A stretch of DNA of 58,777 nt from the NCBI GenBank assembly GCA_009784975.1, contig WQXG01000008.1, positions 1 through 58,777 of the forward strand, in the 5' to 3' direction. The position numbers were made by a program, and so were the translations under genes. The stretch is from Treponema sp. (GTDB lineage Bacteria; Spirochaetota; Spirochaetia; Treponematales; Breznakiellaceae). Under the pieces are notes generated by a model. It saw only the letters and a program-made list of their open reading frames with translations. It ran no database searches and was not told the DNA's origin. This document shows, piece after piece, positions 5,097 through 48,598 of the stretch; position 1 is the stretch's first letter, and the number at the start of each line of letters is the position of its first letter.

Positions 5097-5125
5097 ATGA
5101 CAAACATTTGGTTTTAGGTTAACAT
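5097..5125 (+). promoter_or_regulatory. Candidate promoter of the MoxR operon
   Basis: ATGACA (5097-5102) and TAACAT (5120-5125) are separated by 17 bases and the -10-like box ends five bases before the ATG at 5131. No Shine-Dalgarno sequence is visible. This matches the leaderless geometry seen elsewhere in the window, but both boxes are weak. Confidence 0.35.
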
Positions 5126-5130
5126 AAATT

Positions 5131-6141
5131 ATGGACACTCAAATAAAACCATCAATCGAAAAGCTGATAAACAACATCAGGCGCTTAATCTCGGTAGACG
5201 CCAAAAAACTGGAATATATCATCGCAGCCCAAATTGCGGGCGGTCATGTTATACTTGCAGATTCGCATGGAGTGGGGAAAACCTCCCTTGCGCGGGCTTT
5301 GGCTCAGTCAATAAGCTGGCGGCCTCAGGATTTGGCTATAACAAACGGCGTTAAAATGGAAGGTTTTAGCCGTATCCAGTGTACTGTCGATTTGCTTCCT
5401 CAGGATATTTTGGGGTTTAACCGCTTTATCGGCCATTCGGGAGAAATGATTTTTAATAAAGGGCCGGTGTTTGCTCATTTTGTGTTATGTGACGAAATTA
5501 ATCTGCTTACTCCAAAAACGCAGGGCAGTTTTTTTCAGGTAATGGAAGAGCAGAGTGTTACAATAGAAGGAAGATTATATCAGTTATCCGATCCCTTTTT
5601 TATTATTGCAACAATGAATTTAAAGGGTGTTCACCTGTTTCCGCTTCCTGTTCCCCAGCTTGACCGTTTTATGATCCGCCTTTCGCTCGGGTATCCCAGC
5701 GCAGAAGAAGAAAAAGAAATTATAAACAAACACGGAAGGATCGATGCCTGGGAGAATTTTAAAAGCGTTATAGACAGCGCAGATTTAATTCGCTGGAAAA
5801 AAATGGTAGATGATGTGCAGATGCATCAGGATGTAACTTCCTATCTTGTTAATTGCGTACGGTATACAAGATTGCATCCCGATATTGAAACACCGGCAAG
5901 CCCGCGCGCAGGTGTGCGTATTTCAAGGCTTGCGAAGTCTTTGGCGCTTTGCCGCGGTTTGGATTATGTTTCTGTCGATTTAATCAAGGAAATATTTATA
6001 CATTCAATGGCGCACCGGATTATAACACGCGATCCTTCCATTCCGCCGGAAGCTCCTTTAACAAGCATATTAAACTCGGTTCCTGTTGAACCAAAACCTG
6101 AGCACAACTTTGTGCTTGGCAAGGAACCTGCAAAGCAATGA
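5131..6141 (+). CDS. MoxR-family AAA+ ATPase
   Basis: A 336-residue MoxR-type AAA+ ATPase, a chaperone-like class that often works with DUF58 and von Willebrand A proteins encoded beside it. The nucleotide site is at ILADSHGVGKTSLA (41-54), with catalytic-site Lys50; the first Walker A glycine is replaced by Asp44, an oddity. Walker B is FVLCDEINLL (Asp120-Glu121), followed by the MoxR signature QVMEEQSVTIEG (135-146) and sensor-1 text ATMNLKG. The C-terminal lid contains SPRAGVRISRLAKSLAL. It is the first gene of an operon whose next gene, DUF58, overlaps its stop by ATGA. In other bacteria such clusters support folding or assembly of exported or membrane proteins; the client here is unknown. 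Confidence 0.88.
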   Translation: MDTQIKPSIEKLINNIRRLISVDAKKLEYIIAAQIAGGHVILADSHGVGKTSLARALAQSISWRPQDLAITNGVKMEGFSRIQCTVDLLPQDILGFNRFIGHSGEMIFNKGPVFAHFVLCDEINLLTPKTQGSFFQVMEEQSVTIEGRLYQLSDPFFIIATMNLKGVHLFPLPVPQLDRFMIRLSLGYPSAEEEKEIINKHGRIDAWENFKSVIDSADLIRWKKMVDDVQMHQDVTSYLVNCVRYTRLHPDIETPASPRAGVRISRLAKSLALCRGLDYVSVDLIKEIFIHSMAHRIITRDPSIPPEAPLTSILNSVPVEPKPEHNFVLGKEPAKQ

Positions 6142-7397
6142 AGCTCTTACGCTTTCGGCCGGTTTTAACGCCAGTGGGGGGCGCTGTTATTATCATCGCC
6201 CTGTTAATTTTAATTCGTTCTCTTGTTATGCGCAATTCCTATGAGATAGTATTGTCATGCGGCATTTTGCTTGTTTTGCTTGCGCTTGCCGTTATTGGTT
6301 TATGGAAATCCCGCAAATTAAAAACGCTTTCTGCGCTCTGGAAAACGCCGTTTCCCATGACGGCAAGAGCAGGGGAGAAAACTCATGTTACAGGTATAGA
6401 TACGCCTGTTCCTCTTTTTTTCCGCATGCACTTTATTGTGCGGGGGCGTTTTTTTCCATGCGCCGGCAGCAGAAGCTGTACTATGCTGGCAGAAACTTCA
6501 ATCCCCCGCGATGAAACATCGTCGTATATTGCACTTGATTTTCCAATGTCGGGAATATTTCAGGGTAACGGGTATTGTCAATTACGTGACATATTCGGCT
6601 TTTTTTCATTTTCCTGCGGATTGCCTGCGGCAAATACGTTAAATGTAAGAAGCGCCCCCTATTTTGGAAAAATAATCCATATAAATGCGCAGGCAGGCGC
6701 AGAAGACAAGCGTAATAAACCTTCCGCAGATGAAGAAAGATATTATATGCGCGAATATACTCCCGGTGACAGGTTACGTGACATTAATTGGAAAAGTTCG
6801 GACAGGATAGATACCCTTATAACGCGTATTTCTACAGATAATCAGGAAAAAATAACCCGAATAGAAGTGCATTTCCGCAATTATTGCAGCGCAGATGTTT
6901 CTTTGGAAGCATTATGGCTTTTGGATCGCGCAAAAGCGCGTCTTGCCTATTTTTTGCGGAGCATTAAGGAACAAAATTCATCATTCATATTTGATATCCG
7001 TACAGCGCAAGGCAGCAGGGAAATAGAAGATCAAAATGATCTGGACGCGTTTCTTGAAGAATTGGCAGGACTTTCATTTTCGCCTTCCGTAAATGAATCT
7101 GTTATTTCTGCGGGTGCGGGTGATATATATGTCTTTTCTACAGCATGCGATTTTACCCTTCCTGCTTTTCTTCTTGCCTGTAATCCGCGTCCTGTTACGC
7201 TTTTTATTTCTCAGAATATTACCGCGAACCAACACGAACCAACACGAACAAATGAAGATAAAGAAGTGCTGTATTTAAGAGATTTTATTTCCAGGGGATG
7301 TTCTGTTTCTCCGCGCTGGTTTGGCAGCGGGAAAGTGAAGCCGCTTAAAGTTCATGCTGCAAAGATAGAAAATAATTATGCGCAGGTGAAATTATGA
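6138..7397 (+). CDS. DUF58 domain membrane protein
   Basis: A 419-residue protein with two membrane segments near the N-terminus (about 13-31 and 36-55), then a beta-rich region and the DUF58 signature YYMREYTPGDRLRDINWKSS (about 202-220), followed by a degenerate vWA-like C-terminal fold. It overlaps the MoxR stop codon (ATGA at 6138-6141), so translation is probably coupled. DUF58 proteins are the usual partners of MoxR ATPases. Near the C-terminus the DNA contains a tandem 10-base unit (aacacgaacc, 7225-7250) that codes for QHEPTRTNE; because the unit is not a multiple of three, copy-number change would shift the frame. Confidence 0.85.
   Translation: MKLLRFRPVLTPVGGAVIIIALLILIRSLVMRNSYEIVLSCGILLVLLALAVIGLWKSRKLKTLSALWKTPFPMTARAGEKTHVTGIDTPVPLFFRMHFIVRGRFFPCAGSRSCTMLAETSIPRDETSSYIALDFPMSGIFQGNGYCQLRDIFGFFSFSCGLPAANTLNVRSAPYFGKIIHINAQAGAEDKRNKPSADEERYYMREYTPGDRLRDINWKSSDRIDTLITRISTDNQEKITRIEVHFRNYCSADVSLEALWLLDRAKARLAYFLRSIKEQNSSFIFDIRTAQGSREIEDQNDLDAFLEELAGLSFSPSVNESVISAGAGDIYVFSTACDFTLPAFLLACNPRPVTLFISQNITANQHEPTRTNEDKEVLYLRDFISRGCSVSPRWFGSGKVKPLKVHAAKIENNYAQVKL
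7225..7250 (+). repeat. Tandem 10 bp repeat inside the DUF58 gene
   Basis: The unit aacacgaacc is present about 2.6 times within the coding sequence, encoding a hydrophilic stretch unlike its surroundings. It may be a short insertion of a dispersed 'cgaaccaacacgaac' type repeat. It sits about 50 codons before the stop. Confidence 0.55.
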
Positions 7398-12110: not shown

Positions 12111-12136
12111 AGGGACAGAGTACACTCTGCCCCCTT
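12110..12136. terminator. Bidirectional hairpin between convergent MFS and hsp20 genes
   Basis: AAGGGaCAGAGT (12110-12121) pairs with ACTCTGccCCCTT (12124-12136) around a two-base loop, with one asymmetric bulge. It follows the MFS stop directly and lies just past the hsp20 stop on the other strand, where a shared terminator would be expected. No long T-run follows on either strand. Confidence 0.55.
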
Positions 12137-12147
12137 AAGCCTATCCC

Positions 12148-12576
12148 CTATGCCGCATTAATCTGAATGATCCTTTTTTGCGCTTCTGTGCGTTTTTCGA
12201 TTGTAAGGCTAAGCACGCCGTTTTTAAAGGATGCGCTCACTGCTTCCGGATTTGCATTCGCAGGCAGCTTGAAAGAGCGGCTGAAAGAAACGCACCTGCG
12301 CTCTTTAATCAGGTAGGTAAAAGTTTCTTCCGCCGTTTCCTGTTTGGAAGCAATGGTGATGTTGGAGCCGTCAACATTAATTTCGATGTTTTTCTCATCA
12401 TAACCCGGCAGCTCCATTTCAAGAATGTAGGCGGCATCGGTTTCACGAACATCTGTCAAAGGCATGTGATTAAACATCCTTTCTGCATTGCCTAATGCCG
12501 GCAGCATCGTGTCCAGATTCTCAAGAACATTGTCAAAGAGATTCTGAAAGGGGCGGTAAAGAGTAATTGTTTTCAT
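12148..12576 (-). CDS. Hsp20-family small heat shock protein
   Basis: A 142-residue alpha-crystallin-type chaperone that would hold unfolding proteins in the cytoplasm. The crystallin domain (about 42-132) includes YILEMELPGYDEKNIEI, CVSFSRSFKLP and FKNGVLSLTIEK. The C-terminal IIQI (IxI motif) is the usual oligomerisation anchor. The ribosome site GGAG lies upstream of the ATG at 12576. A perfect inverted repeat CAGTTC-aac-GAACTG at 12615-12629 is about 38 bases upstream and could be an operator; no CIRCE element is present. Confidence 0.93.
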   Translation of the reverse strand: MKTITLYRPFQNLFDNVLENLDTMLPALGNAERMFNHMPLTDVRETDAAYILEMELPGYDEKNIEINVDGSNITIASKQETAEETFTYLIKERRCVSFSRSFKLPANANPEAVSASFKNGVLSLTIEKRTEAQKRIIQINAA

Positions 12577-12614
12577 GGTTTTTCTCCAATCCTACGAGAT
12601 ATTTTGCGAACTTC

Positions 12615-12629
12615 CAGTTCAACGAACTG
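12615..12629. promoter_or_regulatory. 15 bp inverted repeat upstream of hsp20
   Basis: CAGTTC and GAACTG flank the spacer AAC. It lies between hsp20 and the divergent GH94 gene but much closer to hsp20. It could be a repressor site for the heat shock gene; that is only a positional inference. Confidence 0.35.
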
Positions 12630-12822
12630 TCCCCCTTACGGCGGGTTTTTTCGCTTTTCTCGTCGACACCTATTTATTAGCAAAAACTATGCCAAGCCCT
12701 TTTTACGCCAAAACAACACAAATTTAATGCAAAAAACATCAATTAAAAACCCTTTTTGGAAATAATGACACAGAGAGAAAAAAATCGTCGTTTTTTGTGT
12801 CATTTTGACACAGAATTCCCCC

Positions 12823-12854
12823 AAGGTGACTGTCACCTTATTTTATTGTATACT
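12823..12854 (+). promoter_or_regulatory. Candidate leaderless promoter and operator of the GH94 gene
   Basis: GTGACT (12826-12831), 17 bases, TATACT (12849-12854), six bases, then ATG at 12861; no Shine-Dalgarno sequence is present. The -35 is buried in a near-perfect palindrome AAGGTGAC-t-GTCACCTT (12823-12839), a plausible repressor site that would let sugar supply control the phosphorylase. A second, looser pair TGACACA / TGTGTCA occurs just upstream around 12765-12802. Confidence 0.5.
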
Positions 12855-12860
12855 ATGAAT

Positions 12861-15305
12861 ATGCAATACGGTTATTTCGACGATGAAACGCGTGAGTATG
12901 TAATCACCCGTCCCGACACGCCTTTTCCCTGGATAAATTATTTGGGCTGCGAAGATTTTTTTAGTCTTTTTTCCAATACTTCGGGCGGTTATTGTTTTTA
13001 CCGCGACGCGAAAATGCTGCGCCTGACACGTTACCGCTACAATAATGTTCCTGCCGATGCAGGCGGACGTTATTTTTACCTGCGGGATAACGGCGATGTG
13101 TGGACACCTTCCTGGATGCCGATGAAATCCGCGCTGGACAGATACGAGTGCAGACATGGCATGGGCTACTCGCGAATTTCTTCTGCGCGAAAAGGATTGG
13201 CTTTTTCGCAAGTTTCGTTCGTGCCGTTAGGTGACAATTGTGAAATTCATAAAATTACGCTTGCAAACGAGTCTGCCGCTCTTAAAAATATTGATGTTTT
13301 TTCCTTTGTGGAATTTTGTTTATGGAACGCAAATGACGATATGACAAATTTCCAGCGTAACCTTAACATCGGCGAAGTAGAGGTGCATGGATCCCGTATC
13401 TATCACAAAACCGAATACCGCGAAAGGCGTAACCATTATGCTCTGTGGGCTGTCAATGTTCCCATCGAAGGATTCGATACCGACAGGCAGGCTTTTCTTG
13501 GTTTATATAACGGTTTTGATTCCCCTAAGACAGTATTAAACGGGAAAGCCGGTAATTCCATCGCTTCCGGCTGGGCGCCGGTTGGGTCTCATCATATTAA
13601 ATTAAATCTTGCGCCGGGCGAATCTAAAGATTTTGTGTTTGTATTGGGATATTGCGAAAACCATCAGGAGCAAAAGTGGGAGAGCGTTAATGTTATCAAT
13701 AAAAAACCTGCCGATGCTCTGCTGGAAAAATACAGTACACCGCAGGCAGCGGATAAAGCTTTTGCAGATCTTAACGATTACTGGAAAAATCTTTTAAGCC
13801 GTTTTACAGTATCCGCCCGGGACAAATGTATGGAGCGCATGGCAGGTGTATGGAATCAATATCAGTGCATGGTAACTTTTAACATGTCGCGCAGCGCGTC
13901 TTATTTTGAATCGGGTATCGGGCGCGGAATGGGTTTTAGAGATTCAAATCAGGATTTGCTGGGATTTGTGCATCTTGTTCCGCAGCGTGCCCGCGCGCGT
14001 ATTCTTGACATTGCGGCAACTCAGTTTCCCGACGGCAGCGCGTATCATCAATACCAGCCGCTTACAAAAAGAGGCAATAACGAAGCAGGTACCGGATTTA
14101 ACGATGACCCATTGTGGCTGATATGTTCGGTTGCAGCATATATAAAAGAAACCGGTGACTGGAGCATACTGGAAGAAAAAGTTCCGTTTAATAACGATGA
14201 AAAACTGGCAGATACTCTTTTTGTTCACCTTAAATGTTCTTTTGATTACACTGTAAGAAATAAAGGTCCGCACGGGCTTCCGTTGATTGGCAGAGCAGAC
14301 TGGAATGATTGTTTAAACCTTAATTGTTTTTCCAAAACACCCGGCGAATCTTTTCAGACAACCGCCAACTTTGAAAGCGGCGTTGCAGAATCTGTTTTGA
14401 TTGCGGGAATTTTCGCGTTCGCGGGTCCCGATTATACAGAAATTTGCCGCCGCACAAACCGCGCGGAAGAAGCTGAATATGCAGAAAAAGAAATAACCGC
14501 GATGGTTGATGCGATTAATAAACATGGCTGGGACGGAGAGTGGTTTCTGCGCGCCTATGACGCTTACGGTAAAAAAATAGGCAGCCGTGAATGCGATAAC
14601 GGAAAAATATTTATAGAATCAAATGGTTTTGCGGTAATGGCGGGTATTGGTATCGAAGACGGGCGCGCGTTAAAAGCGCTTGACTCTGTAAAGGAGCATC
14701 TTGATACAAAATACGGAATTGTTTTACTGCAGCCGGCTTATAAAGAGTACCATCTTAAGTTAGGTGAAATTTCTTCCTATCCGCCGGGATACAAGGAAAA
14801 CGCGGGTATTTTCTGCCACAATAATCCATGGATTACGATAGCGGAAACGCGTCTTGGAAGAGGAGACCGCGCCTTTGAAACCTATGCAAAGATTTGCCCT
14901 GCCTACCGCGAAGACGATTCAGATCTTCGCCGCATGGAGCCCTATGTTTACGCGCAGATGGTTGCCGGGAAGGACGCACCGCGTCACGGAGAGGCAAAAA
15001 ATTCCTGGCTTACGGGAACTGCGGCATGGACCTTTGTAAGTATTTCCCAGTATATTCTGGGGATACGTCCTGTTTTTGACGGCTTGCTCATTGACCCCTG
15101 CATTCCAAAAGAAATGAAGGAGTTCACCGTTACCCGCCATTTCCGCGGCGCTGATTACCGCATAACGGTGGACAATAGCGCGAGCACAGAAAAGGGAATA
15201 AAATCAATCACGGCAGACGGAAAGCCGCTTTGCAGCGCTGTGCTGCCTGTCTTCAGCGACGGCAAAACTCATAATATAATTGTAGTGATGGGAAAAGATT
15301 TCTAA
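12861..15305 (+). CDS. GH94 cellobiose phosphorylase
   Basis: An 814-residue family 94 phosphorylase expected to split cellobiose with phosphate into glucose-1-phosphate and glucose in the cytoplasm. It begins [15 protein letters not shown] and continues [14 protein letters not shown], the typical N-terminus of cellobiose phosphorylases, and its length matches the usual 810-820 residues. The segment [18 protein letters not shown] (Asp480, Asp483) is the conserved region in which the general acid lies, and [19 protein letters not shown] is also characteristic. The frame is open upstream to 12756, but family comparison places the start at 12861, or at 12855 (two residues longer). No signal peptide is present. 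Beside a GH5 cellulase it suggests energy-sparing cellobiose use. Laminaribiose or cellodextrin phosphorylase is a less likely alternative. Confidence 0.92.
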
Positions 15306-18816: not shown

Positions 18817-18963
18817 TTAAAAACCGTCCTTTGATGAGAACAAATTCTCTATAATATCAGTATAATTGCAAAAGCTCCAATGATCAACGATCTTGGGCAA
18901 TCTTCCTCTTATTATCGGTAAATTTGTATATAAAACGGCAAATATTTGATACAATATTTGTTA

Positions 18964-19836
18964 ATGATCGATTTACACACCCATTCAAATGTTTCCGACG
19001 GGGAACTAACCCCTGCCATGCTGGTAAATGAAGCCGTCAGGCTGGGGCTTTCTGCCATCGCCCTTACCGATCATGATACCATTAAAGGGCTGGAAAGCGC
19101 GATTGAAGCGGCAAAACAACATGAAAATTTTCATTTTATACCCGGAATAGAGATAAATATTAACTGGAAAGGTAAAATCGGGCTTGGCCCCGGAGGGGAA
19201 TTTCATCTTCTGGGGCTGGGTATTAAAAAGCCTAGTCCTGCCTTTATTTCTGCTGTTGACGGTTTATTTCGCCGGCGGGAAGCGAGAAACCGGGAAATTC
19301 TTAACAGAATGCACGAATTCAGCATTGATGTATGTTGGGAGGATATTTTGGCTTTTTCCGGCGGTCATGCTGTGGGGCGGCCTCATTTTGCGGCGTTTTT
19401 AGTGAAGCGGAAAATCGTAAAAAACATAAATCAGGCGTTTTCACGCTATTTGGGAGTAGGTAAACCCATGTATGTGCCAAAAGAGGGGTTGATTTTTGAA
19501 GAAGCCGCCGCTCTTATACGGGAATCCGAAGGTTTTCCGGTACTGGCGCACCCAAATTCTCTTTATATTGCATGGGGACGCCTTCCCGATTTTGTTAAAA
19601 CATTAAAAGAGATGGGGCTGATGGGTCTTGAGGCATGGCACCCCACCGCTAAACACGGCTCCTGCCGCCGTCTTGAAGCATTGGGCAAATCATTGGAATT
19701 ATTTGTTACAGAAGGCAGCGATTTCCACGGCTCGCTTCGTCCTGACCGCAAACTTGGTTATTCCGGCAGAAGCAGAAAAATTAACGATGCGGTTTTGGAA
19801 GCGATACCGTGTTTATTAAAACCTGTTAGTTCCTAA
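18964..19836 (+). CDS. PHP-domain phosphoesterase (TrpH/RNase AM-like)
   Basis: A 290-residue PHP-domain protein beginning MIDLHTHSNVSDGELTP, then ALTDHDTIKG (about 32-41), IPGIEIN, and near the end EGSDFHG, which supply the His/Asp metal site. Its closest named relatives are TrpH/YciV phosphatases that act on 3',5'-nucleoside bisphosphates or short RNA 5' ends. The frame is open from TTG at 18946, but homologues begin at MIDLHTHS. There is no Shine-Dalgarno sequence; TACAAT at 18950-18955 ends eight bases before the ATG, consistent with a leaderless start, though no good -35 is seen. Confidence 0.85.
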   Translation: MIDLHTHSNVSDGELTPAMLVNEAVRLGLSAIALTDHDTIKGLESAIEAAKQHENFHFIPGIEININWKGKIGLGPGGEFHLLGLGIKKPSPAFISAVDGLFRRREARNREILNRMHEFSIDVCWEDILAFSGGHAVGRPHFAAFLVKRKIVKNINQAFSRYLGVGKPMYVPKEGLIFEEAAALIRESEGFPVLAHPNSLYIAWGRLPDFVKTLKEMGLMGLEAWHPTAKHGSCRRLEALGKSLELFVTEGSDFHGSLRPDRKLGYSGRSRKINDAVLEAIPCLLKPVSS

Positions 19837-24694: not shown

Positions 24695-26176
24695 TTATTT
24701 GTATAGCGGGCTTAAAGCCTCTAAATACTTTGAATAGACCGCATAAGCGCTGTTATACAGGCTTACGCTTTTGCTCTCCGGTTTAATTGCCGCGCCCAAT
24801 GCGACATGTTCATCTGTCAGGACTTCTATCAGGCTTTTTTTGCCTTCATGTGTCTGAAGACACCACAATGCCTGAATAGCGGCTCCCATTGCCGCAGCTT
24901 CCGTGCCGGTTGGAATGCGCACAGGCAGGTTCATCACGTTAGCCGCAATTTTTTGCCAGAGCTGGCTCTTTGAACCGCCGCCTGTAAGGCGAATCTCTTT
25001 TGGTTTAAAACCAAGTGAAATAAAACCGTTAAGGCCGATTCTCATTCCAAAAATCGCAGATTCAAGGGCAGCGCGGGAAAGATTTTCTTTTTTAAAGTTC
25101 GCGGCAGTTATTCCGTTGATGCTCGCTCTTCCGTTGGGCAGGTTGGGTGTTCTTTCTCCGTTGAAGAAGGGCAGTATCACGATACCGTCGGCGCCAATGG
25201 GCGCTTTAGCGGCTTCTGTATTAAAAGCGTTAATATCGAGTCCTAAAAGCCGGCGGATTTCTTCGCTTGCCACAGTGCAGTTCATGGTGCAAAGAAGAGG
25301 CAGCCAGCCTCCCGAAGACGAACAGAAAGCGGCAAGATTTCCGGTTGGGTCAATAACAGGCGTTTTTGAATAACCAAAAAGCGTTCCGGATGTGCCAAGG
25401 CTCATTGTTAAAAATCCGTCCCGGACAGCGCCTGTTCCTATTGCTCCCATCATGTTATCCCCGCCGCCCGATGAAACAATTACCCCTTCGTTAAGCCCGT
25501 AAAGTTCAGCGGCAGCTTTGCTTACCTTTCCTGCAATTTTCTCGGAAGAAACAAGAGGCGGCAGATAACTTTCTATGGACGGAGAAATGAGTTTGCAGAC
25601 TTCGGATGACCATTTGCGTTCCTTTACATCAAAGAGAGCCGTGCCTGACGCATCGCCGTATTCCGCCTGGTATTCGCCGGTCAGCAAAAAATTGATGTAA
25701 TTGTGGGGTAAAAGGATATGTTTTAAAGCCGCAAATGCCTTTGGTTTGTGTTTTTTAAGCCACAGAACCTTTGGAGCGGTATAACCCGGCCGCATTGGAA
25801 GCCCTGTTTTTTCTATTAGTTTTTTCTCGCCGCCAAAAGCTTTGGTTAGCTCGCTGCATTGAACGGCAGTTGATGTGTCGCACCAAAGTTTTATATTGTA
25901 AACGGGTTTTCCCTTGTCATCCAGCGGTACAAAGCCGTGCTGCTGGCCTGAAACGCCGACGGCAAGGATACTGTTTTTTACCTTTTTGTCGATTTTGGCA
26001 AAGCAGGTCTTTATTGCCGCGTCATACCACTCGGTTTTTTGTTCCCGTGTGCCGTCATTATCCGCAATAATATCCAATGGAGCCTGAGATTGGGCTATTA
26101 TCGACTTTTTTTCATAGTCGTAAACTATCAATTTACAACTTTGGGTTCCCAGATCGATTCCGCAGATTGTTCGCAT
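24695..26176 (-). CDS. xylB: Xylulokinase
   Basis: A 493-residue FGGY-family kinase that phosphorylates D-xylulose, starting [20 protein letters not shown]. Further marks are [28 protein letters not shown]-like text ([14 protein letters not shown]) and the C-terminal [30 protein letters not shown]. An ATG nine bases further upstream (26185) is possible, but homologues start at the ATG at 26176 and no Shine-Dalgarno sequence favours either. The promoter at 26184-26212 has the leaderless layout. With xylA it forms the xylose-entry operon; a xylose transporter or XylR is not in the window. Confidence 0.95.
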
Positions 26177-26183
26177 AGGCAAC

Positions 26184-26212
26184 ATTGTATTATATGAAAC
26201 GCCAATTGTCTA
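26184..26212 (-). promoter_or_regulatory. Candidate leaderless promoter of xylBA
   Basis: On the minus strand TAGACA (complement of 26207-26212), 17 bases, TACAAT (complement of 26184-26189), seven bases, then ATG at 26176. There is no Shine-Dalgarno sequence. A TATAAT also overlaps just upstream of the TACAAT box but has no matching -35. Confidence 0.55.
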
Positions 26213-26325
26213 TGTTTTTGATGCCGGGGGCAGTAATTTTTCAAAAAAACGTAAAAAATAATGGCAAATTAGCCAAATCCGTAGTATACTTAAAAGGTTG
26301 TATTTGTTTTTCTGAAGGAGAATCA

Positions 26326-31553: not shown

Positions 31554-32915
31554 ATGAAAAAGTTTTTTATTTTATTAACGGTTGTTTTGTTATTATTCCC
31601 GTCTTCTTTTTTGGCTGCGCAGGAAGCGGATGTTCCTCAAGCCGGCAATGAAGAGGCGGCATCAGAAATCGCTGTTGTAGAAGAAAAAATTGAGGAAGCG
31701 GCTGCCGATATTATTACATCCGCTACCATTGTTGACAGAGAACCGGAAGAAAGCCTTAATTTTTTCCAGCGGCTTGCTATTGCCATTGCCATTGTAGCAG
31801 GTCAGGTGCTGCTGATTTGGTTTATATGGTATCTGTTTAAACGGCTGGATATAAAACTTGAACATTCTACCAAGCATAAAATAAAACCATTTGTAATTAA
31901 AAAATTCACCGTACTTGGCGCAAAACAGGTTGTAAAAATAATTGAGTTTTTTCTTAGGCTGTTAAAATATTTTATAACCGCTGTTCTGTTATTCCTTACA
32001 TTGCCTGTTGTATTCAGTCTTTTTCCCGCGACAAGATCCCTTGCTTCGGCATTGTTTCAGCATGTATTTAATCCGGTAAAGGATATAGCGGTTAACGCCG
32101 TAATGTATATTCCCAATCTGTTTAAAATAGCGGTTATTGTTATTATTACCCGTTATGTGCTAAAGGCGCTTAAATATTTTGCAGACAAGATAGAAAAAGG
32201 AAAACTTGTAATACCGCGATTTTATACAGATTGGGCTGCGCCTACCTATAAAATATTACAGGTGCTTTTATGGGCTTTTACGGTCGCGCTTGTATATCCC
32301 TATCTGCCGGGTTCGGATTCAAGGGCTTTTCAGGGCGTTTCTGTATTTATCGGTATTATTTTTTCTATCGGATCAACTTCAGCAATCGGAAACCTTGTCG
32401 CAGGACTTGTTATAACCTATATGCGGCCTTTTAAAATAGGAGATCGTGTTAAAATAAACGATACCGTTGGTTTTGTTGTAGAAAAAAACCTGATGGTGAT
32501 ACGGATTAAAACACATAAAAATGAATATGTAACGTTTCCCAATCTGATGATTCTAAACTCAAATATTGTAAATTATAATACTTCAAGCGATGAAGACGAA
32601 GAAGGTTTAATTATTTATGCAGAGGTTACCTTTGGTTATTCTACACCCTGGCAGACAGTACATGATATTCTGATTAATGCGGCGCTTGCGACAGAGCATG
32701 TTCAAAAAAAGCCAAAGCCTTTTGTGCTTCAGACAAAAATGGATGATTTTTACGCATGTTATCAAATAAATTGTTATACAAAGGATGTCAGCAGGGTTCC
32801 CGCAATTTATACATTATTGTACGAGAATATTCAAAACGGTTTCCGCGAAGCCGGACTTGACATGACGTCCGCGCATTACAGGGTAATTACTTCGGGTAAT
32901 AAGCAGTTGTTATAA
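31554..32915 (+). CDS. MscS-family mechanosensitive channel
   Basis: A 453-residue protein with a cleavable signal peptide (ending FLAAQ), a short acidic region, four to five membrane segments between about 75 and 290, and the MscS pore/beta domain (IGSTSAIGNLVAGLVITYMRPFKIGDRV at about 275-302, too long to be anything else). The following GFVVEKNLMVIRIKTHKNE and FPNLMILNSNIVNY complete the beta domain. AGGAG precedes the ATG at 31554. Last gene of the glycosidase-ppx-ppk operon, it would release solutes on osmotic down-shock, which fits the operon's apparent osmolyte theme. Confidence 0.9.
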   Translation: MKKFFILLTVVLLLFPSSFLAAQEADVPQAGNEEAASEIAVVEEKIEEAAADIITSATIVDREPEESLNFFQRLAIAIAIVAGQVLLIWFIWYLFKRLDIKLEHSTKHKIKPFVIKKFTVLGAKQVVKIIEFFLRLLKYFITAVLLFLTLPVVFSLFPATRSLASALFQHVFNPVKDIAVNAVMYIPNLFKIAVIVIITRYVLKALKYFADKIEKGKLVIPRFYTDWAAPTYKILQVLLWAFTVALVYPYLPGSDSRAFQGVSVFIGIIFSIGSTSAIGNLVAGLVITYMRPFKIGDRVKINDTVGFVVEKNLMVIRIKTHKNEYVTFPNLMILNSNIVNYNTSSDEDEEGLIIYAEVTFGYSTPWQTVHDILINAALATEHVQKKPKPFVLQTKMDDFYACYQINCYTKDVSRVPAIYTLLYENIQNGFREAGLDMTSAHYRVITSGNKQLL

Positions 32916-32935
32916 CCTGATATTTATATTATAAT
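32907..32935 (+). promoter_or_regulatory. Promoter of the peptide-binding lipoprotein gene, leaderless type
   Basis: TTGTTA (32907-32912), exactly 17 bases, consensus TATAAT (32930-32935), six bases, then ATG at 32942. There is no Shine-Dalgarno sequence. This is the clearest example of the leaderless layout in the window. The -35 overlaps the stop region of mscS. Confidence 0.7.
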
Positions 32936-32941
32936 GTGAAT

Positions 32942-34591
32942 ATGTCTTATTTTAAGAAACTTTTTTTCGGTGTATTGTGTGTACTGTTAATTTCGACATG
33001 TAAAAGCGCGCCCGTGCGGGAGCCGGAAAATGAAACCAGGGAATATGCCGTAATGCGGCCGGGTGCCCGCAGTCTTACAGAACTTACTGTAGCATTTTCC
33101 AGGCATGACATGGAACTGGATTTTCGTAAATCCTATTATGCCAGCGAAGCGCAGCTTTTTACCGCGATTTATGAAGGTCTTTTTTCCTATCATCCGCTGA
33201 CTTTGGAACCTGTTCCCGCCATGGCAGAAAGATGGGTTCTTTCAGAAGATAAAATGGAATGGACTTTTACTATCAGGAGAAACGCGCGTTTTTCTAACGG
33301 TGATCCCGTAAGGTCGGATGATTTTCGCGCGGCATGGATTTCCATTCTTGAACCGGAGCGGGAAGCGCCGTATTCAAGTTTTTTTGATGTCATAGAAGGA
33401 GCACGTGAATTCCGCAACGGAACGGAAGACGATCCGGAAAAAGTGGGCATATATGCTCCAGATCCAAGAACGCTGGTTGTAAAATTAAATACACCCGCGT
33501 CATTTTTTCCCGCTATGCTGTGCCATCATTCATTCGGAGTAATTCATCCTTCAATGATAGAAAAAAACAAGTGGGCACCTGTTGAAAACGAAGAATGGTC
33601 GCCTCCTGTTTCCAATGGTCCCTTTCACATGGTATCCATGGACGAAGAAAGCATTGTTTTGCAAAAAAACGAATATTATTGGGATCGCAGCAGGGTTGCG
33701 CTGAATAAAATAATTATTAAATTTACAGAAGATGCAAATGAAGCCGCGCATCTTTGGAATTCCGGCGAAGCCCGGTGGATTGCAGGTGATGTTAATATTG
33801 AATCTCTTACAGATCGTTCCGGAATTCAGATAAACGTAATGTTTTCTACTCATTATTATTTTATTAATTCTGCAGGCGAGCCGTGGGATGACGCAAGGGT
33901 GCGCAGAGCAATGTCTCTTGCCCTGCCGTGGGAAGAAATACGCAGTTATTATTATCTGCCCGCAAAAACATTGATATTTCCTGTTACAGGTTACCCTGAA
34001 GTAGAAGGAATTTCAGAATCAAATCATGGTGAGGCTCTTCAACTGATGTTTGATGCCGGATACGCGGACGGCGAAGGATTGCCGGAGCTGGTAATTCGCA
34101 TTACCGCCTCGCGTGATGCAGCGCGTGTTGCGGCGCTGATGGCTAACGCGTGGAAAGATGTTTTAAATTTTAATGTTCGTGTAGAGGTTATTCCTTTTAA
34201 CAGATATTTTCAATCTTTAAAAGAAGGCGGTTTTACTGTCGCTTCAACAACATGGATAGGCGATTTTGCCGATCCATACGCATTTTTACAGATGTGGAGA
34301 GCCGATTCCAATTTAAACGACGCGCGCTTTAATGACCCCGATTATGAAGCGCTTATTGACAGATCCATGATAGAAGAAGGTGAAATCCGCCTTGCCACCC
34401 TTGCCGAAGCAGAAAAGATTTTGCTGGACAGAGGAGCTGTATTGCCCATATGTTACAATCCCGCGCTTAACATTGTAGACACAGGAGAGCTGGACGGATG
34501 GTTTCCAAACGCGCTGGACATTCATCCGTTTAAATACATTTCTTTTAAAGCCTACCGTCCGTTACCTGGTGTAGCAATGAACAGGAGATAG
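32942..34591 (+). CDS. Oligopeptide-binding lipoprotein (SBP family 5, OppA/DppA type)
   Basis: A 549-residue extracytoplasmic solute-binding protein, lipid-anchored through Cys20 (LLISTCKSA). It shows the family-5 layout: YYASEAQLFTAIYEGLFSYHP, AMAERWVLSEDKMEWTFTIR, NARFSNGDPVRSDDFRAAW, VSNGPFHMVSMDEESIVLQKN and AWxDVLNF-type text near the end. Such proteins deliver peptides to an ABC importer, but no permease or ATPase gene is adjacent, so it is an orphan binding protein here. The alternative GTG at 32936 would add two residues. ispF starts three bases after its stop. Confidence 0.9.
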   Translation: MSYFKKLFFGVLCVLLISTCKSAPVREPENETREYAVMRPGARSLTELTVAFSRHDMELDFRKSYYASEAQLFTAIYEGLFSYHPLTLEPVPAMAERWVLSEDKMEWTFTIRRNARFSNGDPVRSDDFRAAWISILEPEREAPYSSFFDVIEGAREFRNGTEDDPEKVGIYAPDPRTLVVKLNTPASFFPAMLCHHSFGVIHPSMIEKNKWAPVENEEWSPPVSNGPFHMVSMDEESIVLQKNEYYWDRSRVALNKIIIKFTEDANEAAHLWNSGEARWIAGDVNIESLTDRSGIQINVMFSTHYYFINSAGEPWDDARVRRAMSLALPWEEIRSYYYLPAKTLIFPVTGYPEVEGISESNHGEALQLMFDAGYADGEGLPELVIRITASRDAARVAALMANAWKDVLNFNVRVEVIPFNRYFQSLKEGGFTVASTTWIGDFADPYAFLQMWRADSNLNDARFNDPDYEALIDRSMIEEGEIRLATLAEAEKILLDRGAVLPICYNPALNIVDTGELDGWFPNALDIHPFKYISFKAYRPLPGVAMNRR

Positions 34592-40351: not shown

Positions 40352-40547
40352 TCCTGTGCTCCGCGAGAAATTCGTCCAGTTCCTGTTCCAGGCAGCACAG
40401 GAATTCTTCCATTTCCAAAAGCCGCCGGATAGAGTATTTTATTTGACACTCCATCAGATTATCGCATGCTTTATCCACAACATCGCTGAATGTGTAAATG
40501 CCGGTTAAAGCAGAAGTTTTCTCTTTTGATTTTTCTTTAAATGTCAT
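40338..40547 (-). CDS. Small conserved-looking hypothetical protein
   Basis: A 69-residue acidic, helical, cytoplasmic protein (ending EEFLCCLEQELDEFLAEHRN). It overlaps the propeller/deacetylase gene by 14 bases. There is no Shine-Dalgarno sequence, but TACAAT (complement of 40554-40559) ends six bases before the ATG, the leaderless spacing seen elsewhere. I do not recognise the family. The regular heptad-like pattern suggests a short coiled coil. Confidence 0.55.
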   Translation of the reverse strand: MTFKEKSKEKTSALTGIYTFSDVVDKACDNLMECQIKYSIRRLLEMEEFLCCLEQELDEFLAEHRNEKL

Positions 40548-40566
40548 GCTTTAATTGTAATCTATT

Positions 40567-40683: not shown

Positions 40684-40701
40684 ATACTCACAATACCATT
40701 T

Positions 40702-41895
40702 TTAGTTTAACAATTCCAGTGGGTTAACCCGCCTGTTGTTCCTGTCCCATATTTCAAAATGCAGATGAGGTCCCGTGCTATACCCGGTATTGCCTACTTC
40801 TCCTATTTTTCTGCCTCTTGCCACCCTGTCCTTCTCTTTAACATTAAATGAGTTTAAATGGGCATAAAGGGTCTTATATCCATTTCCATGACTTATAATG
40901 ATATATTTTCCGTACAGCCAGTTTTCGGCTACTACCTCAACAACCCCGTCCAGAGTTGCCATAACAGTTGTACCCGTATTTGCCCTGAAATCTACCCCTG
41001 TATGGTGCTGCAATATGCCGGTTTTTGGGTCTTTGCGAATGCCGTAATAACTGGTAATAAACCGGCTATGGAGCGGATACATGAATAAATCACCCAAACT
41101 TAACCTAAGATCGATATCATTCATTCTTGCGCCGGGTATAAAGATGGTTTCGCCGGCTTTTATTACATCGCTTTTTATATCATTTACATCCAGGATAACT
41201 TCTAGCGGAACATTGAAAGAAGCGGCTATTCTGGAAAGACTGTCGCCTTTTTTTATTTGGTACGGAATACCGTCAATATTGGGGATTCGTAATACCGCCC
41301 CTTCCTGCAGCCTTCTGGCATTGCGTATTTCATTGGAAGCGATAACAGCGCCGATAGAAACCCCGAATTTTTGCGCAATTACGGAAACCGATTCGCCTCT
41401 TTGTACCCTGTGCTGCCTCCATTCAAAGGCAACCAGTATACCGTGAGGATCGTCCGTTTTCACGTCTGGGGGTGTCTGTTCTTCCTGAATATTGATGGGG
41501 GGTAAAATGCTGGAAATTCCGGTCGCCGCGTATTGAATTGTCTGCTGCTCTGCACTGGTATTATCGGACAGATGAAATTCCGGCATTTTTATGCTGAATT
41601 CTTCCCAATTCAGCGCTGCAATGGCAAATATTATGGTACCGGCTATAAGCGCTGCTGTGGCAATGGAGGAAAGGGTGATTTTAAAACCTTTTATGGCAGT
41701 AAACAACGGGCGAAGAACCGGTTTAGGGCTGTTAAATAACGGTTTTGGCCGTCCTTTAATCTTTTTATGAGAAATAGGCTTTTGTCTGAACTGGTTCATA
41801 AATTCACTGTTAAAACCTGCCGATTTATTATTATGCCTTGTACGGGATGTTTGCCTTCGTTTCGAGACACGTTGATTTTCTATTATTGATACCAT
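40702..41895 (-). CDS. LysM-containing M23 family peptidase (murein endopeptidase type)
   Basis: A 397-residue protein. A basic N-terminus (1-65), one membrane helix (about 74-94), two LysM peptidoglycan-binding repeats (HRVQRGESVSVIAQKFGV at about 160-200 and YQIKKGDSLSRIAASFNV at about 212-255), then an M23 peptidase domain (about 270-397): HHTGVDFRANTGT, YGKYIIISHGNGYKTLYAHL, and GYSTGPHLHFEIW carry the zinc-binding His/Asp residues. It should cut peptidoglycan cross-links at the inner face of the periplasm. It is divergent from lepB with only 45 bases between their starts. Confidence 0.93.
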   Translation of the reverse strand: MVSIIENQRVSKRRQTSRTRHNNKSAGFNSEFMNQFRQKPISHKKIKGRPKPLFNSPKPVLRPLFTAIKGFKITLSSIATAALIAGTIIFAIAALNWEEFSIKMPEFHLSDNTSAEQQTIQYAATGISSILPPINIQEEQTPPDVKTDDPHGILVAFEWRQHRVQRGESVSVIAQKFGVSIGAVIASNEIRNARRLQEGAVLRIPNIDGIPYQIKKGDSLSRIAASFNVPLEVILDVNDIKSDVIKAGETIFIPGARMNDIDLRLSLGDLFMYPLHSRFITSYYGIRKDPKTGILQHHTGVDFRANTGTTVMATLDGVVEVVAENWLYGKYIIISHGNGYKTLYAHLNSFNVKEKDRVARGRKIGEVGNTGYSTGPHLHFEIWDRNNRRVNPLELLN

Positions 41896-41905
41896 ATTTG
41901 GTTTA

Positions 41906-41934
41906 TCGACAAAAAATGCGATTGGGATTATATA
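41906..41934 (+). promoter_or_regulatory. Candidate leaderless promoter of lepB
   Basis: TCGACA (41906-41911), 17 bases, TATATA (41929-41934), six bases, ATG at 41941. No ribosome site is present at the correct spacing. The same 45 bp must also hold the promoter of the divergent M23 peptidase; the tandem TATAAT-like text on the minus strand would serve for that. Confidence 0.5.
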
Positions 41935-41940
41935 TTATAG

Positions 41941-42324
41941 ATGGGTGGATGGAAAAAAGCATTTATTTTAGCGCTTGTTATAGCGTTAATATTAAAATTG
42001 TTCTTTTTTGATTTTATTGTTGCTCAGGGGGATTCCATGGAACCTGCCATAAAAAACGGCAATGTTTTAATTATAAGCCGTTTAAGGTATGGGTTAAGGC
42101 TTCCCTGGAAGCAGAAGTATATAATCCGTTGGGCGCAGCCCAAAGTGGGGGAAGTAGTGGTTTTTTACACACCAATGGGTGAATTGGCGGTTAAACGCTG
42201 CGTAGAGCTTACTGAACGCGGGAATTTCTATGCACAGGGAGATAACAGTGTTGCCTCGTATGATTCCCGCTCTTATGGTTCCATTCCTGCAGATAATATT
42301 ATTGGGAAGGTATTGGGGTATTAA
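41941..42324 (+). CDS. lepB: Signal peptidase I, short form
   Basis: A 127-residue type I signal peptidase with an N-terminal membrane helix (about 6-23). The catalytic Ser32 lies in QGDSMEP and Lys85 in LAVKRCVEL; the third box is GDNSVASYDSRSYGSIP (about 98-114). At 127 residues it is much shorter than the E. coli enzyme and near the minimum for this family. It removes signal peptides at the outer face of the inner membrane. The next gene starts at the base following its stop. Confidence 0.93.
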   Translation: MGGWKKAFILALVIALILKLFFFDFIVAQGDSMEPAIKNGNVLIISRLRYGLRLPWKQKYIIRWAQPKVGEVVVFYTPMGELAVKRCVELTERGNFYAQGDNSVASYDSRSYGSIPADNIIGKVLGY

Positions 42325-44175: not shown

Positions 44176-44186
44176 ATATGCAAGAA

Positions 44187-44349
44187 TTTCTCGCTGAGAC
44201 GCGGAGACGCAGAGATCGCAGAGCTGTAGTTCGAAATCTTTTCTTAAAACTTCTTGAAATTCGGAGTTATCTGAGATTTCTTGGGTTTAAGATTGTCATA
44301 TCGAATAATAACTCTGCGTCCTCTGCGTCCCCGCGCCTCCGCGAGAAAA
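44187..44349. repeat. Long inverted repeat of the 'gacgcggagacgcagag' family
   Basis: The left arm from 44187 (ttctcgctgagacgcggag) is largely reverse-complementary to the right arm ending at 44349 (gcctccgcgagaaaaa); weaker pairing continues inward (cgaaatcttttcttaaaa against tttaagattgtcatatcg). The element fills the gap between the PBP and DUF115 genes. Related single-arm text occurs at 15306-15350 and 58294-58400. Confidence 0.7.
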
Positions 44350-44374
44350 AATCGTAATAAAATCAGAGGTGCCC

Positions 44375-46231: not shown

Positions 46232-47222
46232 TCTGAAAACCAAATTCTCCGCAGCTCCAGTACATTCGGTCTCCCGGTTTTTTAACATAGATTCGCAGCA
46301 ACAGCCTGCCTGTCCTTTGCTTTGGGATGCCAAACCTGGCTATTCTGGCAGGGAAATGACTGCTTATTCTTGTTCCCGACTGCGTAAACCAGATATAATT
46401 TAATTCGTATCCTTCATTCATTTCAAATTCAAGTATATCTTCTTCTGTTATTTCGGTTATTCTTGTAAGCTCCTGCGGCCATGATTTTACCGACTGAAAA
46501 AATTCCGGTTTTAAAAAAGGAAGATTATCAAATTCTTCCGCGCTCAGAGGCTGCTCCAGCAATTGATGAACGCTGTATGTTGGAAGATGATCATAAATAA
46601 AAATAGCAGGGTTTATAAAAAGATAGTCGGTTCTGTATTTTGCCTGAAATCCCTGTCCGCTTACATAACCTGCATTCCATGTGGTATCTATCAAATAACT
46701 TTTTCCGTTTATCGTAACCATATTCCACGCATGATTCGAGTTTGTAACATCTGTAAATCTGAACAGGCTGCTGCTGTAACCTCTGGCGTAGCCGTTAATT
46801 ATATTACATTCTATTTTAAGTATATCGCAGATATATTTGAATACTTCTGCATAACCTGCGCACACCGCATTGCCGCGCCTGATTACGGAAGTAAAATCCT
46901 GCGGCGCATACCGCCCGGAAAAATAAGATTGAGTATCGTATCTGATATTAAGCGCAACCCAGTCATGCACTTTTTTTACTTTGTCGTATTCACATTCTGC
47001 TTTTTCATTTATATAATCTGCAAGAAGCTGAATAAACTCAAGCGGAGCATTCTGCCGCCGGGAAGTTATTTCCCTTGGCAATTGCCTGATTACAGGATCT
47101 GGAGCATTAGCCTGATAAGTAAAAGCCGCTTCCCCGTCCGCTCCCGGCACAACAACCTGAAATTGAGCAAAAGCCGCTGTGCAGATGATTGTGAATAATA
47201 AAAATAATGTTAGTTTTTTCAT
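46224..47222 (-). CDS. Exported transglutaminase-like domain protein
   Basis: A 332-residue exported protein with signal peptide MKKLTLFLLFTIICTAAFA (cleavage before QF). The transglutaminase/protease core has Cys in RRGNAVCAGYAEVF, His in SNHAWNMV and Asp in YLIDTTWN, within the usual order. The C-terminal 120 residues are beta-rich and unassigned. The frame is open 96 bases further upstream, but that part crosses a repeat element; the signal peptide and promoter fix the ATG at 47222. Its stop overlaps the DUF115 end by eight bases. Confidence 0.85.
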   Translation of the reverse strand: MKKLTLFLLFTIICTAAFAQFQVVVPGADGEAAFTYQANAPDPVIRQLPREITSRRQNAPLEFIQLLADYINEKAECEYDKVKKVHDWVALNIRYDTQSYFSGRYAPQDFTSVIRRGNAVCAGYAEVFKYICDILKIECNIINGYARGYSSSLFRFTDVTNSNHAWNMVTINGKSYLIDTTWNAGYVSGQGFQAKYRTDYLFINPAIFIYDHLPTYSVHQLLEQPLSAEEFDNLPFLKPEFFQSVKSWPQELTRITEITEEDILEFEMNEGYELNYIWFTQSGTRISSHFPARIARFGIPKQRTGRLLLRIYVKKPGDRMYWSCGEFGFQIK

Positions 47223-47229
47223 AATTGTT

Positions 47230-47258
47230 ATTGTAGGGGAATTAGCGTGAAAAATCAA
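47230..47258 (-). promoter_or_regulatory. Candidate leaderless promoter, partly formed by a repeat-element edge
   Basis: On the minus strand TTGATT (complement of 47253-47258), 17 bases, TACAAT (complement of 47230-47235), seven bases, ATG at 47222. No Shine-Dalgarno sequence. The last two bases of the -35 (first on the minus strand) belong to the palindromic element that begins at 47257, so insertion of the element may have created or altered this promoter. Confidence 0.55.
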
Positions 47259-47347
47259 CCGGCAGCAGCTCAGAAATGTATGCCTAAAGATTATACTTGG
47301 GGTCCTGTCGGCCGGCAAGTATGTTTCTGGGCATACATTTCTGAAAC
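47257..47347. repeat. MITE-like palindromic element, copy 1
   Basis: A 91-base block identical to 48965-49055. It has 14 bp terminal inverted repeats CAGAAATGTATGCC (47271-47284) and GGCATACATTTCTG (47330-47343), an inner pair ATACTTG / CAAGTAT, and the core GGGGTCCTGTC. It lies between the starts and stops of neighbouring exported-protein genes. No open frame is present. Confidence 0.85.
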
Positions 47348-47348
47348 A

Positions 47349-47864
47349 CTAATAATTTTTCTTAATAACAACCCCTGTAGCGTTATATAAATAAGATTTG
47401 CCTGACGGTTGAACATACTCAATGTTTATATTGCGAATATCGATTTCTTCTTCAGGATGTCTTTGTCTTGCAGCATCCAGCAAAGCTTCTCTGGCAGCCG
47501 CGGTTATTCTCCGTGATTTACCTGAATTAATTGCAAGGTATTGAATTAAAGATAATCCCAATCCGGCTCCGGATGTTATAGAGCCTATCAAAAGCATCTG
47601 GCTCTCGTAACCGGGTCCTGGATTTGCCATTATATAGCTTCCTACGCCAACTACTATTAAACCCATAACTCCTAAAAAACCAATACCAATTTTTTCGTTA
47701 ATTTCAAAACTTGTAGTAATTTGTTCAATAACTTGAGGATTCGGTATTTGCGATAAAGGCATATGGGTTTTTGATGAAATGCAGCCTGTAAAGCCAAAAA
47801 GCAAGCTTATCGCTAAAGCAAAACAAACACATCTTTTTTTCATATTTTTTACCTTTTTAATCAT
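47349..47864 (-). CDS. Membrane-spanning lipoprotein, unknown function
   Basis: A 171-residue protein with lipobox LFGFTGC. Two hydrophobic segments follow (about 58-78 and 88-110), then a C-terminal region rich in helix and strand ending with the text NATGVVIKKNY. Two starts are possible: ATG 47864 with a GGGGG ribosome site, or ATG 47843 with AAGG. I do not recognise the family. Similar small lipoproteins with a C-terminal 'ARQRHPEEEIDIRNI' kind of segment are common in treponemes. Confidence 0.65.
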   Translation of the reverse strand: MIKKVKNMKKRCVCFALAISLLFGFTGCISSKTHMPLSQIPNPQVIEQITTSFEINEKIGIGFLGVMGLIVVGVGSYIMANPGPGYESQMLLIGSITSGAGLGLSLIQYLAINSGKSRRITAAAREALLDAARQRHPEEEIDIRNINIEYVQPSGKSYLYNATGVVIKKNY

Positions 47865-47952
47865 AATCTTTACCCCCTAATAATACTAATATAATATCAT
47901 TTATAAGAATACGTGTCAACAACTAGTTGAATGAATGTATAATTAATCATAT

Positions 47953-48285
47953 ATGAAGAGCAAAAAGACCGCTTTACGCTGGATTTTAGCGTCAAATCTA
48001 AAAAAACACCGTAAAATGCTTGGTCTATCACAGGAAAAACTTGCTGAATTAGCAGATTTGTCATGGCAAACCATAAATAGCATTGAGTGCCACAGGACAT
48101 GGGTAAGCGATAATACCCTTGAAAGCCTTGCCGATGCTCTTAAAATAGATACTTTTCAATTATTATTACCATTGGAAAATACCATTCAAAAGCCGATTAC
48201 CCCCAACGAAGCAGTCAAAAAAATGGTAAAAATAAAAAGAGCCTTTGACGATTCCTTCAATGAGATAGTGAATTTGATTAAATAG
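47953..48285 (+). CDS. XRE-family helix-turn-helix regulator
   Basis: A 110-residue DNA-binding protein. The HTH occupies about 13-68 (LASNLKKHRKMLGLSQEKLA, ELADLSWQTINSIECHR). The C-terminal helix (90-110) could mediate dimers. TATAAT at 47938-47943 ends nine bases before the ATG, and a palindrome CAACTAGTTG at 47922-47931 lies just upstream as a possible operator. It is immediately upstream of hicAB, and could regulate it, but HicB has its own DNA-binding region. Confidence 0.83.
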   Translation: MKSKKTALRWILASNLKKHRKMLGLSQEKLAELADLSWQTINSIECHRTWVSDNTLESLADALKIDTFQLLLPLENTIQKPITPNEAVKKMVKIKRAFDDSFNEIVNLIK

Positions 48286-48316
48286 AGCCAGCACCGGCTG
48301 CATGTTCCGACTTCAC

Positions 48317-48346
48317 TTGACAAATGATAGCATATATGCTATCATT
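48317..48346 (+). promoter_or_regulatory. hicAB promoter with 24 bp palindromic operator
   Basis: TTGACA (48317-48322) is followed after 17 bases by TATCAT (48340-48345) and, after seven more bases, the hicA ATG at 48353. A perfect 24 bp palindrome (48323-48346; half-site AATGATAGCATA) fills the spacer and overlaps the -10, so a bound dimer or tetramer of HicB would block RNA polymerase. No Shine-Dalgarno sequence precedes hicA. Confidence 0.8.
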
Positions 48347-48352
48347 AAATTA

Positions 48353-48598
48353 ATGGGTAAAAAAGACAAGCTAATTAAAAGAATTTTTGAAGGCAAACTA
48401 GATATAACTCCTGATGAAGCTGCAAAGATTCTTGAAAAGCTTGGATTTGTTTCGACACCAACTAGCGGTTCTCATCTCACTTTTAGAAAACCAAACCGAC
48501 AGTCGGTTACAATTGTTATAACTCAGAAGCCGTTGAAAACATACTTGATAGAAAAGTTGCAAGAAGCGTTGAAAAACGAGGGGTACAAGAATGACTAA
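48353..48598 (+). CDS. hicA: HicA-type mRNA interferase toxin
   Basis: An 81-residue HicA toxin that cuts mRNA independently of ribosomes. The double-stranded-RNA-binding fold carries the catalytic His in SGSHLTFRKP, preceded by KILEKLGFVSTPT. The frame can be read from a codon further upstream at 48302, but the promoter and palindrome lie in that part, so ATG 48353 is preferred. It overlaps hicB by eight bases. Confidence 0.92.
   Translation: MGKKDKLIKRIFEGKLDITPDEAAKILEKLGFVSTPTSGSHLTFRKPNRQSVTIVITQKPLKTYLIEKLQEALKNEGYKND

Follow-up and report, generated by a model that had tools for sequence, protein, structure and literature searches.

Promoters set close against the start codon point to leaderless mRNAs in a Treponema-related genome

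Promoter sites in the window

The stretch of DNA analysed here (the window, 58,777 nucleotides at full length) is contig WQXG01000008.1 (C8 in our numbering) of the Treponema sp. assembly GCA_009784975.1, a genome of 2,600,560 bases in 73 contigs that is 95% complete. The main sigma factor of this genome shows up to 89% identity to its counterparts in Treponema sp. metagenome-assembled genomes, which we take to be of termite-gut origin. Our subject is a recurrent arrangement first seen at six genes of the window, in which a sigma-70-type -35/-10 pair ends 6 or 7 nt before the ATG with no Shine-Dalgarno (SD) leader, and the leaderless mRNAs that such promoters would produce.

On the forward strand, the gene of a GH94 phosphorylase (site 12826..12863) has the -35 element GTGACT at 12826-12831, the -10 box TATACT at 12849-12854 and, after 6 nt, its ATG at 12861. 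The same 6-nt distance is found for a peptide-binding lipoprotein of the SBP_bac_5 type (32907..32944; TTGTTA 32907-32912, TATAAT 32930-32935, ATG 32942) and for a lepB-like signal peptidase (41906..41943; TCGACA 41906-41911, a weak TATATA 41929-41934, ATG 41941), while 7 nt separate the box from the ATG in hicA (48317..48355; TTGACA 48317-48322, TATCAT 48340-48345, ATG 48353). On the reverse strand, the distance is again 7 nt for xylB (26174..26212; ATG 26176, TACAAT 26184-26189, TAGACA 26207-26212), which is without an SD leader, and for a transglutaminase gene (47220..47258; ATG 47222, TACAAT 47230-47235, TTGATT 47253-47258). Pfam or NCBIfam supports the assignments of the GH94 enzyme, the binding protein, the S26 peptidase, HicA, the FGGY kinase and the transglutaminase, as well as those of a MoxR-type ATPase, a helix-turn-helix (HTH) protein, xylA and an hppA-type pyrophosphatase elsewhere in the window.

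All six sites had been proposed in a first-pass annotation of the window, and on re-reading, each -35, spacer, -10, distance and ATG was found exactly as claimed. The spacer is 17 bp in all six, within the 16-18 bp expected of sigma-70 promoters (the lepB site also fits 19 bp), and none of them has a 4-letter SD word at -20 to -5. When the -10 box is defined strictly (TA...T with at least 5 of the 6 letters of TATAAT, as opposed to a looser TANNNT), five sites pass and the TATATA of lepB fails. A free search over spacers of 15-19 bp and distances of 4-9 nt ranked the original reading best in five of the six. Strict boxes at 6-7 nt precede 5 of the approximately 46 gene starts of the window (p = 0.0015, for examples chosen post hoc), and a strict box stands 6-7 nt before 36 of the 1969 ATGs on both strands, real starts included.

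The weaker cases fared unevenly. At moxR (5097..5133, forward strand; -35 ATGACA 5097-5102, ATG 5131) the -10 box TAACAT (5120-5125) ends 5 nt before the ATG and not at 6-7 nt. A 69-residue open reading frame (ORF) on the reverse strand (40545..40559) does have the strict box TACAAT (40554-40559) 6 nt before its ATG at 40547, without a good -35, and a 38-residue ORF has TATTGT at 6 nt. The RluA gene has TATTAT 7 nt before the proposed GTG, albeit with the gene caller taking ATG 57104 as the start; the XRE gene has TATTAT at 6 nt, together with a poor -35 (2/6 letters) and an AGGA word in the SD range. Taken singly, the 38-residue ORF, XRE and RluA cases may be due to chance. A candidate absent from the earlier list is a 290-aa gene on the forward strand (18950..18966), PHP-type phosphoesterase-like albeit below NCBIfam cut-offs, with TACAAT at 18950-18955, 8 nt before its ATG at 18964.

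Genome-wide spacing and signs of initiation at the ATG

The spacing was analysed in a sample of 858,777 bases from the same genome (40 stretches of 20 kb plus the window), with a G+C content of 0.42. A coding-score model blind to upstream signals called 605 genes, the most upstream plausible ATG being taken as the start; genes starting less than 70 nt from the end of a stretch were excluded from the counts. By the presence of a 4-letter SD word at -20 to -5 the sample divides into 300 SD and 305 no-SD genes. Ahead of the no-SD genes, strict boxes number 36, 11 and 16 at 6, 7 and 8 nt, and 0-9 at each remaining distance between 0 and 44 nt (0-5 past 13 nt), compared to 1, 0 and 0 at 6, 7 and 8 nt ahead of the SD genes. 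In 300 dinucleotide-preserving shuffles of the upstream regions, boxes at 6-7 nt averaged 5.4 and never exceeded 12, as opposed to 47 observed; at 6-8 nt they averaged 8.3 and reached at most 16, as opposed to 63 observed. The lack of such an excess, which the first-pass annotation had named as a refutation, is thus not what the genome shows. As a further control, 5085 non-gene frames lacking an SD word were scored at their first ATG, where a strict box occurs in 0.3-0.8% of cases per distance, and in 0.6% at 6 nt, the distance at which 11.8% of the no-SD genes have one. Across the whole genome, matches to TATAATN{0,20}ATG total 588 and 662, as compared to 453 and 441 in a backward control.

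The boxes at 6-7 nt have the company expected of promoters. Among these 47 hits, a -35 element (at least 4/6 letters of TTGACA) stands 17 bp away in 19 and 18 bp away in 7, versus 0-2 at every other spacing from 13 to 21 bp. At -1, C is present in 14 of the 36 six-nt cases; the proportion is lower among the remaining 258 no-SD genes (40, p = 0.002) and among the SD genes (35 of 300, p = 0.0001). The signal also depends on the start codon: a box precedes 56 of 437 no-SD ATG candidates (8.1 expected), whereas GTG (4/99, 2.1 expected) and TTG (9/251, 6.5 expected) show no clear excess. Of the 320 first-like genes, 56 combine a strict box at 5-8 nt with the absence of an SD word (class LL below), compared to 8 of the 264 genes internal to operons (p = 7e-9; 21 edge genes excluded). 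Together with the footprints in relatives described below, these features support the claim that the placement of the -10 box reflects leaderless transcription, as far as upstream sequence can reveal it. A-rich codons 2-4 were considered as an additional mark and rejected, as they are A-rich in all gene classes.

Measured against a 40-61 nt background, the excess at 6-7 nt would put 32 (strict box) to 42 (TANNNT) of the 320 first-like genes in the class. As a rough estimate, leaderless mRNAs would thus serve some 5-7% of the 605 genes, or 10-13% of the genes likely to have a promoter of their own. The claim that the genes concerned are unrelated holds as well: a set of 55 leaderless candidates hit 93 Pfam families, none of which, among the matches listed, occurs in more than three candidates. 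Among these same matches, AAA-ATPase_like and PDDEXK_9 have three members each, as do DUF4143 and AAA_14, with one candidate each for a class I tRNA synthetase, a release factor domain and DisA. The families are thus mixed, and no functional bias is claimed for the class.

In the SD genes, on the other hand, the boxes are shifted, 107 of the 170 strict boxes within 0-44 nt falling at 15-30 nt. Their leaders would thus often be only some 8-23 nt long, barely longer than the SD sequence itself.

Footprints in relatives

Samples of 120-200 kb from each of 14 relatives, and 200 kb of E. coli, were analysed in parallel for boxes at 6-7 nt before no-SD genes. Strict boxes exceeded the mean background in both members of the same genus (9 versus 1.6 in G020, 7 versus 1.2 in G008) and in G025 (7 versus 0.8), G036 (4 versus 1.0) and G029 (5 versus 0.2) of the same order. 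The counts were 0 versus 0.2 in G034 and 1 versus 0 in G027, also of the same order, and 1 versus 0.2 in G042 of the same class. A 200-kb sample of Breznakiella homolactica gave 2 versus 0.2 with the strict box and 7 versus 1.1 with TANNNT. Among other members of the phylum, G053 had 3 versus 0.6 and G067 2 versus 0.3 (background maximum 3), while at this sample size no excess was seen in G040 (1 versus 1.2), G082 (1 versus 1.5) or G055 (0 versus 0.6). The looser box gave 9 versus 0.8 in G029 and 6 versus 0.7 in G042, as compared to 2 versus 4.4 in G040 and 3 versus 3.8 in G082. The E. coli sample had none among 69 genes (0.6 background) with the strict box and 2 versus 3.0 with TANNNT. The excess in several relatives means that the arrangement is not peculiar to the genome under study.

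For the window genes themselves, upstream regions were read in 13 of the 20 genomes found to have GH94, 13 of 19 for xylB, 14 of 29 for lepB, 19 of 20 for the binding protein, 3 of 6 for the transglutaminase and 13 of 14 for moxR, plus the only one found for hicA; scanning genome contigs with a 738-aa protein encoded in the window gave no confirmed relatives. The clearest evidence that the box truly acts as a promoter, read from aligned upstream regions, is its conservation at xylB. In all 13 relatives xylB starts at the same ATG, and 12 of them are SD-led (the exception being L295). In an alignment of 12 genomes, which leaves out L290 and L295 (both kept in the SD count), the -35 letters GACA and the -10 box TAnAAT are invariant and 17 bp apart, while the distance from box to ATG is 17-39 nt with an SD word in 11 relatives and 7 nt without one in the window. 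This pattern suggests that the leaderless state of xylB is derived in the genome under study.

Conservation of a different kind is seen at moxR, where all 13 relatives have TANNNT at 5-6 nt and none has an SD word, and the ATG lies at exactly the same place in 11. The binding protein has a same-place ATG in 10 of its 19 relatives; TANNNT stands at 5-7 nt in 9 of these 10 (in 8 at exactly 6), and in an alignment of 11 genomes the invariant upstream columns are the TTG of the -35 and the TATAnT of the -10. The sole relative found for hicA (G014) has TTGACA and TATCGT, the latter 6 nt before an ATG at the same place. All 13 GH94 relatives share the ATG of the window gene, which fixes this start codon, and all 13 have an SD word; the upstream alignment (4 of the 13 left out) was too diverged to reveal loss of a leader from a conserved promoter. 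For the transglutaminase, two of the three relatives are SD-led and share the ATG, whereas the alignment of the third begins only at residue 18, which makes it uninformative. More broadly, when 63 genes of this genome were compared with 210 orthologous starts, its LL genes paired with LL six times, with weak LL once, with SD eight times and with neither once; several of these starts are poorly aligned, and one of the six LL pairs, with L140, is a locus of the genome itself and is to be ignored.

Some structural details accompany these genes. The hicA promoter contains a perfect 24-bp palindrome (48323-48346), extending from just after the -35 to the end of the -10 and mostly kept in G014 (L315); it resembles an operator by which the gene would repress itself. 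The xylB gene and its forward-strand neighbour are divergent and nearly abutting. The neighbour starts at 26221 by coding score, with its most upstream ATG at 26194, which places the xylB promoter across or directly beside the neighbour's 5' end. Upstream of the lepB-like gene (41895-41941), several relatives (L278, L279 and L286-L289) have kept much of a block like TATCGACAAAAA...GGGATTATA, while the position of the ATG varies, the picture that a fixed promoter and a moving start codon would give.

Competing explanations, known systems and significance

Leaderless initiation is a known minority mode of starting translation. We consider it very probable, judging by the placement and conservation of these boxes, that sigma-70-type promoters at the ATG yield leaderless mRNAs in this genome. 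RNA polymerase would start at, or 1-2 bases from, the A of the ATG, the transcription start being itself inferred, and ribosomes would bind the 5' ATG directly with initiator tRNA and no SD contact, as is established for leaderless mRNAs. The genome would then use two modes, one leaderless, with the -10 box ending 6-8 nt before the ATG, and one SD-led with a short leader, the box commonly standing at 15-30 nt. Some genes seem to switch between them by short changes in the segment from -10 to ATG. A wider proposal is possible, albeit rather doubtful at present: in these treponemes promoters would lie so near their genes that changes of ~10-30 bp in this segment convert SD-led into leaderless genes or the reverse while the promoter is kept, the two modes would exchange freely among close relatives, and the leaderless AUG would be a full second mode of ribosome entry.

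A number of observations weigh against the leaderless reading, some of them at single sites. For lepB, a TATATT with a 19-bp spacer and a 4-nt distance scores slightly higher than the 17/6 reading, and the evidence from relatives is ambiguous: no ATG among the 14 is at exactly the same place, TANNNT falls at 5-7 nt in 5, and an SD word occurs in 1. Like several of the weak cases, lepB is insecure as a leaderless gene. The binding-protein gene of the window itself falls among the 8 operon-internal LL genes; 9 of its 19 relatives lack a same-place ATG and were not used (an SD word occurs in 2 of them), and in 1 of the 10 retained the box is accompanied by a 4-letter SD word. Most of the relatives read for GH94, the transglutaminase and xylB are SD-led, so that leaderlessness is not conserved in these genes, and the absence of the xylB leader might conceivably reflect an error in a fragmented assembly.

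Others concern the class. In a scan of the sample that ignores genes, exact TATAAT is in no more than faint excess before ATGs (32 and 28 at 6 and 7 nt versus 12-31 elsewhere), and the strict box is flat (177 and 188 versus 110-195). When a -35 is required the counts stand out (13 and 10 versus 1-8); the spacing signal emerges at gene starts or once a -35 is demanded. The first-pass annotation had contrasted its sites with SD genes lacking the spacing, and hppA (56324), xylA (24677; both identities confirmed by NCBIfam) and the gene at 49959 are indeed classed SD with no strict box at 5-8 nt, but this contrast is to some extent inevitable, a -10 box at 6-7 nt taking up the letters in which an SD sequence would have to stand. 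Counts at 5, 8 and 11 nt could, by reasoning, be inflated by in-frame stops within the box, so weight was put on 6-7 nt; the non-gene frames show no bump at these distances. The gene caller is itself imperfect. For 82 annotated E. coli genes, hand-picked from 2 of 4 stretches with very short genes and an insertion element excluded, it recovered 72 stops and placed 62 of these 72 starts correctly, and in the window it misplaced the GH94 and xylB starts and missed lepB and hicA. Finally, a search of the assembly (G000) found no 16S rRNA gene, so the anti-SD sequence of this genome is not readable in its fragmented assembly.

Among the alternatives, the A/T-rich stretch might be an entry element for ribosomal protein S1 or unstructured RNA, on an mRNA that begins upstream at another promoter. 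An A/T bias at -20 to -10 could indeed mean either S1 sites or Pribnow boxes, as noted in the part of Nakagawa 2017 (PMC5397173) drawn on here. The -35 at 17-18 bp and the C at -1 suit a promoter instead, and at xylB the -35/-10 pair is kept in relatives ahead of an SD-led gene; on these grounds we reject this explanation as very unlikely. It is similarly improbable that the promoters are real and the true start codons lie further downstream, leaving ordinary short leaders. The error rate of the caller and the variable lepB starts speak for such misplacement, but the same-place ATGs of GH94, xylB, hicA, moxR and about half of the binding-protein relatives, and a peak that is sharp at 6 nt and clear for ATG only, lead us to reject it for the class as a whole. 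Chance, by which some of the many TATAAT-like words of an A/T-rich genome would fall close to ATGs, draws some colour from the G+C of the sample, the 36 boxed ATGs of the window and the almost flat gene-free scan, but is ruled out for the class by the shuffles and the non-gene frames and is extremely unlikely, the -35 position, the -1 base, the preference for ATG and the conservation in relatives all being unexpected under it.

Leaderless mRNAs from promoters at the ATG, the reading that we prefer, can be compared with known systems, on the basis of parts of the papers cited. The sites resemble the TA-led genes of Zheng et al. 2011 (PMC3160421), in which the first T of TANNNT lies ~12 bp before the start codon and which include spirochaetes, with leaderless genes in 6 of 18 Spirochaetes genomes (mean 3.9%, range 1.8-6.9%). 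Unlike that survey, the present case concerns a Treponema-related assembled genome, with ~5-7% of genes by excess counts, and adds the -35 at 17-18 bp and the missing SD leader revealed through relatives. In another spirochaete with leaderless genes, Leptospira interrogans, differential RNA sequencing (dRNA-seq; PMC5243855) placed primary starts of 430-450 genes no more than 10 nt from the start codon. There RNA was measured and no upstream motif except sigma-54 was reported, whereas here a plain -35/-10 is seen in sequence alone. In Mycobacterium tuberculosis (PMC3898074) leaderless genes make up 26% of those that have a primary start, with no conserved -35 reported. TANNNT, C as the commonest base at -1 and frequently leaderless toxin-antitoxin genes (here hicA) are shared with it, while the smaller share, the presence of a -35 and the absence of a clear peak for GTG starts set the present genome apart. 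Literature searches on leaderless mRNAs in treponemes, on transcription start sites in Treponema and on termite Treponema returned no evident report as judged by titles and abstract openings. Thus leaderless genes in spirochaetes are already published, and the literature searched to this extent held no description for the treponeme clade.

If the leaderless reading is correct, a group of Treponema relatives would join the bacteria that make common use of leaderless expression, and gene finders that expect an SD sequence may misplace starts in this group. The xylB gene, with one conserved promoter that has an SD leader in close relatives and none here, would offer a natural pair for studying how leaderless genes originate and what is lost or gained in translation.

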